Below are positions 55,951 through 56,602 of a stretch of 64,000 nucleotides of DNA, piece after piece. This stretch comes from Deltaproteobacteria bacterium (lineage in GTDB: Bacteria; Desulfobacterota; Syntrophobacteria; Syntrophobacterales; Thermodesulforhabdaceae): the NCBI GenBank assembly GCA_019309115.1, contig JAFDGW010000007.1:1-64000 (forward strand), given 5' to 3'. The notes under the pieces were generated by a model that worked only from the letters and a program-made list of their open reading frames with translations, ran no database searches and was not told the origin of the DNA. Both the position numbers and the translations under genes were made by a program. How positions within the stretch are numbered: the stretch's first letter is position 1; every line of letters begins with the position of its first letter.

Positions 55951-55966
55951 TGAAGCACTTTCCAGG

Positions 55967-56005
55967 CAGTGAGTTCCCTGTTATGAGAAGGGGCTCACTG
56001 TTTTT
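55967..56005 (+). terminator. Rho-independent terminator of the hsp20 pair
   Basis: CAGTGAG (55967-55973) pairs with CTCACTG (55994-56000), extended by GC and GU pairs, followed by TTTTT. It lies 17 bases after the second hsp20 stop. Confidence 0.75.
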
Positions 56006-56038: not shown

Positions 56039-56140
56039 ATTAAACATGTGGTTTGTATAGGTAGATGTGATCCTTGAGGGTTATCACAAGTAGGAAATCT
56101 GGAAACCTTAAACAACCAGAAGGGTAAGGATGATAAGATT

Positions 56141-56452
56141 ATGAAAGTGCTTTTTATTATAACCACCAACGATGCAGAAACGGTTTACAATGCCATGAGG
56201 CTTGCAAATTTGGGAGTTAAAAAAGGCGATGAAGTAAGTGTGTTCATGCTCGGAAAAGGAGTTTTATTCGAGCAAATAAGTTCTGACGAGTTCGACGTAA
56301 TGGCGCAGATTAATGCTTTTGAGGGCGATTTTTATGTGTGAGGTGTATGTATGAAATCTCACGGTCTTGTGGGATCATCTACATGTCCTGTTGGTTGGAT
56401 GGATGACCTATACGAATTGGCAAAAGAAGCTGACAAGGTGTTTACCTTCTAA
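56141..56452 (+). CDS. DsrE-like selenoprotein (Sec at in-frame TGA)
   Basis: A 103-residue DsrE/F-family protein if the in-frame TGA at 56339-56341 is read as selenocysteine (residue 67). Before it lie 66 residues typical of the family (NDAETVYNAMRLANLGVKKGDEV, then MLGKGV). After it the same frame continues GVCMKSHGL, then CPVGWMDDLYELAKEADKVFTF to TAA 56450-56452. Relatives have Cys in this place (CGTC), so TGA replaces a conserved Cys and makes a U-x-x-C redox pair. A SECIS-like hairpin follows the TGA (56356-56375). DsrE-like proteins take part in sulfur transfer or related redox chemistry. Sec insertion is inferred; the SelA-D genes are outside the window. Confidence 0.85.
56356..56375 (+). 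promoter_or_regulatory. SECIS-like hairpin after the in-frame TGA
   Basis: ATCTCAC (56356-56362) pairs with GTGGGAT (56369-56375), seven pairs including one G-U, around the loop GGTCTT. The loop begins with GG and contains GGUCU, the same bases found in the E. coli fdhF SECIS loop. The loop starts 22 bases after the TGA, within the range of bacterial SECIS elements. Confidence 0.75.
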
Positions 56453-56575: not shown

Positions 56576-56602
56576 GAAAATTCACCCAGCGGGTGAATTT
56601 TC
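56576..56602. terminator. Bidirectional terminator between convergent genes
   Basis: A perfect 12-base inverted repeat GAAAATTCACCC / GGGTGAATTTTC with a 3-base loop. The A/T-rich arms give T-runs in both directions, fitting its place between the selenoprotein gene (plus) and the ferredoxin-like gene (minus). Confidence 0.75.

Follow-up and report, generated by a model that had tools for sequence, protein, structure and literature searches.

The reading frame at 56141-56452 almost certainly encodes a DsrE-like protein in which selenocysteine (Sec) is predicted to be inserted at codon 67. This near-certainty covers Sec insertion into a DsrE-like protein; the cellular role of the protein lies outside it. 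Positions refer to the window, the whole 64-kb stretch of DNA that was analysed. The gene adds a well-supported copy to a family that sulfate-reducing bacteria were already known to carry, and the kind itself is not new. As the earlier note remarked, a DsrE-like selenoprotein had been predicted before: a UxxC protein with a SECIS element was named from Sargasso Sea data (Zhang et al., 2005; PMC1088965), and a DsrE-like selenoprotein was listed for Desulfovibrio vulgaris (Zhang et al., 2006; PMC1794560). Two DsrE groups were described in GOS data (PMC2398784), and reviews from 2022 and 2026 list the DsrE-like selenoprotein (PMC9312934, PMC13188914), the latter noting that such proteins are largely uncharacterised. 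The window protein shares with this family the PF02635 domain, Sec in a UxxC motif, a predicted bacterial SECIS and the existence of Cys homologues. The likeness to the D. vulgaris case is one of published description rather than of sequence, and the copy in the present genome does not appear in the available portions of the published lists.

The frame opens with ATG at 56141 and runs for 66 codons to the TGA at codon 67, after which 36 more codons lead to TAA at 56450-56452 (Table 1). Gene calling with table 11 returns 66 residues at 56141 instead of 103, the truncation that the earlier note anticipated, and the annotation of this fragment is corrected here. The 103-residue product matches PF02635 (DsrE) along the entire profile (positions 1-116 of 116; E 5e-10, 40 bits against a cut-off of 22.7), so the codons hidden behind the TGA do complete a DsrE-family protein.

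Table 1. Features of the DsrE-like gene and its surroundings, in window positions except where a locus is named.
Feature	Position	Strand	Basis
DsrE-like selenoprotein coding sequence, 103 residues and TAA stop	56141..56452	+	TGA read as Sec
In-frame TGA, Sec67	56339..56341	+	TGA in relatives, Cys in distant forms
TGT, Cys70, putative resolving Cys of U-x-x-C	56348..56350	+	motif U67-G-V-C70
AAGGA, probable ribosome-binding site, 10 bases before ATG	56126..56130	+	read directly
Predicted SECIS region, apical hairpin and weaker lower pairing	56342..56389	+	fold, pairing, codon constraint
Apical stem, 5' arm AUCUCAC	56356..56362	+	
Apical loop GGUCUU, holding the Gly75 codon	56363..56368	+	
Apical stem, 3' arm GUGGGAU	56369..56375	+	
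Terminator-like inverted repeat CAGTGAG...CTCACTG then TTTTT, between second Hsp20 gene and DsrE-like gene	55964..56003	+	fold
12-pair hairpin 3' of the gene, possible two-way terminator	56576..56602	.	fold
UGKL/UGKS subclade copies	L134 1794-2108; L146 1530-1844; L147, L148, L149, L152; L141 1671-1988		

The AlphaFold2 model (pLDDT 87, poor at residues 78-84) places Sec67 directly after strand 63-66 and before a short helix at 70-73. Its best PDB matches in Foldseek are DsrE-like proteins (3pnx, 2hy5, 2qs7 and 3mc3); searching the PDB by sequence turned up no relatives, and no phage match was found. The sulfurtransferase subunits DsrE/DsrF and TusD have the same fold (E 1.6e-4 for 3pnx and 1.1e-3 for chain B of DsrEFH, 2hy5) but are only 11-15% identical to the window protein, which carries Sec in place of Cys. 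Cys78 of TusD would presumably fit the position of Sec67. The window gene further differs from the DsrEFH and TusBCD systems in being single and small, without DsrF/DsrH or TusBC/TusE neighbours, and no such partner cluster is found among the largest neighbour clusters of 137 related loci. Judged by fold and neighbourhood, there is about an even chance that the product is a thiol/selenol redox or sulfur-relay protein.

It is less probable, and on balance unlikely, that this selenoprotein takes part in selenium handling itself, as the YedF DsrE domain does, and not in sulfur redox chemistry or stress. YedF (TIGR03527) is a two-domain TusA-DsrE selenium metabolism protein whose redox motif is given as CGxC (PMC5322559), and the CGxC of its DsrE domain aligns with U67-G-V-C70. 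When compared by hhalign with the YedF of the same genome, which is encoded by a separate gene beside selD, Sec67 falls on the Cys of CGTC (E 1.6e-4, at a probability of only 50%). YedF and SelD genes also lie near the DsrE-like gene in 4 of the 137 loci, two being the same contig (L078/L153), but such linkage is rare. The window protein is a single domain lacking the TusA-like N-domain, and it scores 12.8 bits against TIGR03527, where the cut-off is 110. Cys forms are moreover present in haloarchaea, which to our knowledge do without Sec. A redox or sulfur-relay function remains the preferred reading.

The genome from which the window derives (2.5 Mb, 72 contigs, 96% complete) holds all of selA, selB, selC and selD, the genes on which the earlier note made its proposal depend. 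selC is a tRNA-Sec with anticodon TCA (77.3 bits), and protein matches were found for SelA (E 2.2e-182), SelD (E 1.4e-115) and SelB (E 8.5e-109). The SelD of this genome is itself a predicted selenoprotein (L015 1354-2490), its gene carrying TGA in frame where SelD usually has Sec (TASGUAAKIG) and adjoining the YedF gene. selA is found in all 46 genomes that carry the Sec form, a co-occurrence that adds little because 269 of the 297 genomes in the phylum sample have selA anyway. Readthrough with a different amino acid, by a suppressor tRNA or under a code in which TGA means Trp, is compatible with a frame that stays open under a changed code, yet it is very improbable: TGA is the stop of 23 of the 46 long reading frames in the window and is thus not a general sense codon here, so that recoding is local; homologues carry Cys and not Trp at column 67; and both the Sec machinery and a candidate SECIS are present.

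Sec at codon 67 is also the reading that relatives favour. Six peptide patterns that leave out residue 67 were searched against 84,980 species genomes and gave 101 relatives; in the best 80 of the 101 (69-84% identity) codon 67 is TGA in 80 of 80. The TGA at 56339 is thus found in every close relative, and a misread TGC or TGT, which the earlier note had considered, is therefore excluded. Searching 297 genomes of the phylum with a profile located the family in 53, with E values of 1e-60 to 1e-10 for Sec forms and a handful of copies without the stop. Desulfosarcina widdelii (L039) and Desulfoferrobacter suflitae (L027) are among the cultured Thermodesulfobacteriota with an orthologue. Eight stop-free copies align Cys at column 67 (CKVC, CGTC, CGKC, CGSC), one of them with Ala replacing the second Cys, and copies from haloarchaea and alphaproteobacterial plasmids have CGTC or CGAC at the U67-x-x-C70 column. 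Distant members with CGxC or CKVC at that column thus bear out the expectation that Cys homologues would align at residue 67. Among the loci scored, Sec copies number 128 and Cys copies 8.

That the TGA is a true stop, leaving a pseudogene or a truncated 66-residue product only, accords with standard gene calling and with some clearly broken relatives (frameshift and TAA in the G255 copy, TAA in L060, TAG in L090), but this vanishingly improbable reading is already refuted by conservation, because Thermodesulfobacteriota and Nitrospirota alike retain the same TGA, synonymous change is free outside the hairpin, and identity to the window protein over 109 aligned copies is higher after the TGA than before it (80% vs 73%). 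The broken copies comprise L124/L154 (G255), L155 (G100), L060 and L090, with a frameshift, TAA, TAG or a missing middle. Some are possibly assembly errors, and as a group they suggest occasional gene loss. The G255 copy was not accepted as a double-Sec (UGVU) form, as TAA follows directly and the remainder is out of frame; either this copy is broken or the assembly is in error.

On a 70-row tree the subgroup of the window protein consists entirely of Sec forms (37 rows, two of them Nitrospirota; support 98/99); about four Sec/Cys changes are needed on the whole tree, which was built from few columns and has many open forks. In a distant Sec subclade (Table 1) the motif reads UGKL or UGKS, with Leu or Ser where UxxC has its second Cys, and Sec in these proteins would have no resolving Cys to act with. 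For DsrE-like proteins, the reviews give only UxxC (PMC9312934, PMC13188914). Tandem copies occur as well. In L129 (1662-1979 and 2015-2332; same as L122) a Sec and a Cys copy stand side by side, 5' of a pyridine nucleotide-disulfide oxidoreductase gene, and offer a natural comparison. L144 (1576-1884 and 2037-2339) has two Sec copies that have diverged: the first, with ULTC, has a hairpin that is different or unclear, and the second has UGAC.

The predicted SECIS lies immediately downstream of the TGA. Fourteen bases separate the TGA from its apical stem of seven pairs, including one G-U, and the first G of the loop is the 22nd base after the TGA; the seven-pair hairpin with a GGUCU loop described in the earlier note is thereby confirmed. 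The single-sequence fold is unremarkable (z -1.69 vs shuffles), so hairpin and TGA alone are not strong evidence; conservation across relatives lifts the element far above chance. Across 96 distinct homologues, most of the gene shows free codon choice, the background entropy for Gly and Ser being about 2 bits, but codons 72-78 are nearly fixed: Ser73 is TCC in 82 of 83, His74 CAC in 90 of 93, Gly75 GGT in 88 of 96, Glu77 GAG in 52 of 52 and Gly78 GGA in 83 of 87. The Val66 codon just before the TGA is biased too (GTC, 80/94). The seven pairs are formed in 88% of cells in Sec forms vs 36% in Cys forms and 24-56% in slid registers. Since the stem columns scarcely vary, shuffling codons within columns leaves pairing only slightly above the null, and codon entropy was used instead.

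Compensation is visible within the stem. Where Ser73 is replaced by Ala (TCC to GCC), which breaks a U-A pair, Gly78 is GGC in 4 of 7 sequences vs 0 of 78 others; the change from GGA to GGC is silent and restores a G-C pair opposite. The p value of 3e-11 for covariation between Ser73 and residue 78 covers all residue-78 codons and, the sequences being related, should not be read literally. A second, distant Sec subgroup has its own covarying seven-pair hairpin with a GGN loop at the same 14-base distance, paired in 92.5% (slides at most 54%) and showing CG, AT, TA and GC at one position. Among Cys forms no comparable hairpin was found, except a differently placed eight-pair one in L128. An Rfam scan of the SECIS region gave chance hits only, with no family above chance. 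The codon-level constraint, the compensation in the stem and the lack of the hairpin from Cys forms uphold the SECIS assignment and, on comparative sequence grounds, show that the hairpin downstream of the UGA is under RNA-level selection.

In the window the gene is neighboured by two Hsp20 genes and a gene for an Fe-S/HTH protein. The linkage to Hsp20, to which the earlier note drew attention, did not hold up: of 137 related loci only 3 have Hsp20 homologues near the gene, a terminator-like inverted repeat separates the Hsp20 genes from the DsrE-like gene, and these neighbours are incidental. A promoter/terminator consensus scan found nothing and left the repeat uncalled. Elsewhere in the family, ArsR-type regulators occur in the fetched flanks of 14 of 80 relatives (about a sixth; e.g. 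L058, L052, L040), where the phylum's density of 66 PF01022 matches in about 89 Mb predicts about 0.3 for the 0.42 Mb of flank, a comparison of counts made by different criteria that holds to an order of magnitude only. TrmO is encoded 3' of the gene in several relatives, an ArsP-like permease near it in five loci, a thioredoxin-reductase-like protein in five and a pyridine nucleotide-disulfide oxidoreductase 3' of it in two. None of these genes, nor YedF-SelD, lies beside the gene in the window itself. In L162 (1480-2264) an ArsR gene abuts another DsrE-family gene.

In bacteria, SelB together with Sec-tRNA(Sec) binds the loop of the SECIS immediately 3' of the UGA, and Sec is incorporated where translation would otherwise end. 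UGA codon 67 would be read as Sec in this manner, through SelB and Sec-tRNA(Sec) at the predicted loop, with termination avoided. Sec67, at the end of its strand, would act as a nucleophile in selenenylsulfide or perselenide chemistry, and Cys70 would resolve the Sec67 intermediate. The ArsR-type regulators beside many orthologues tentatively point to a part in the stress caused by reactive sulfur or soft metal(loid)s. It is possible, though doubtful, that the Sec-containing DsrE proteins form a stress module controlled by regulators of the ArsR type, whose signals would be reactive sulfur or soft metal(loid)s; in this module the Sec67 selenol would serve as sulfur carrier or metal ligand and the UGKL/UGKS subclade would operate without a resolving Cys. 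The family represents a little-noticed DsrE-like selenoprotein with a wide distribution in Thermodesulfobacteriota, where nearly all copies have the Sec form, and it is also found in Nitrospirota. Its links to ArsR, ArsP, TrmO, YedF-SelD and pyridine nucleotide-disulfide oxidoreductase genes provide handles on its function.
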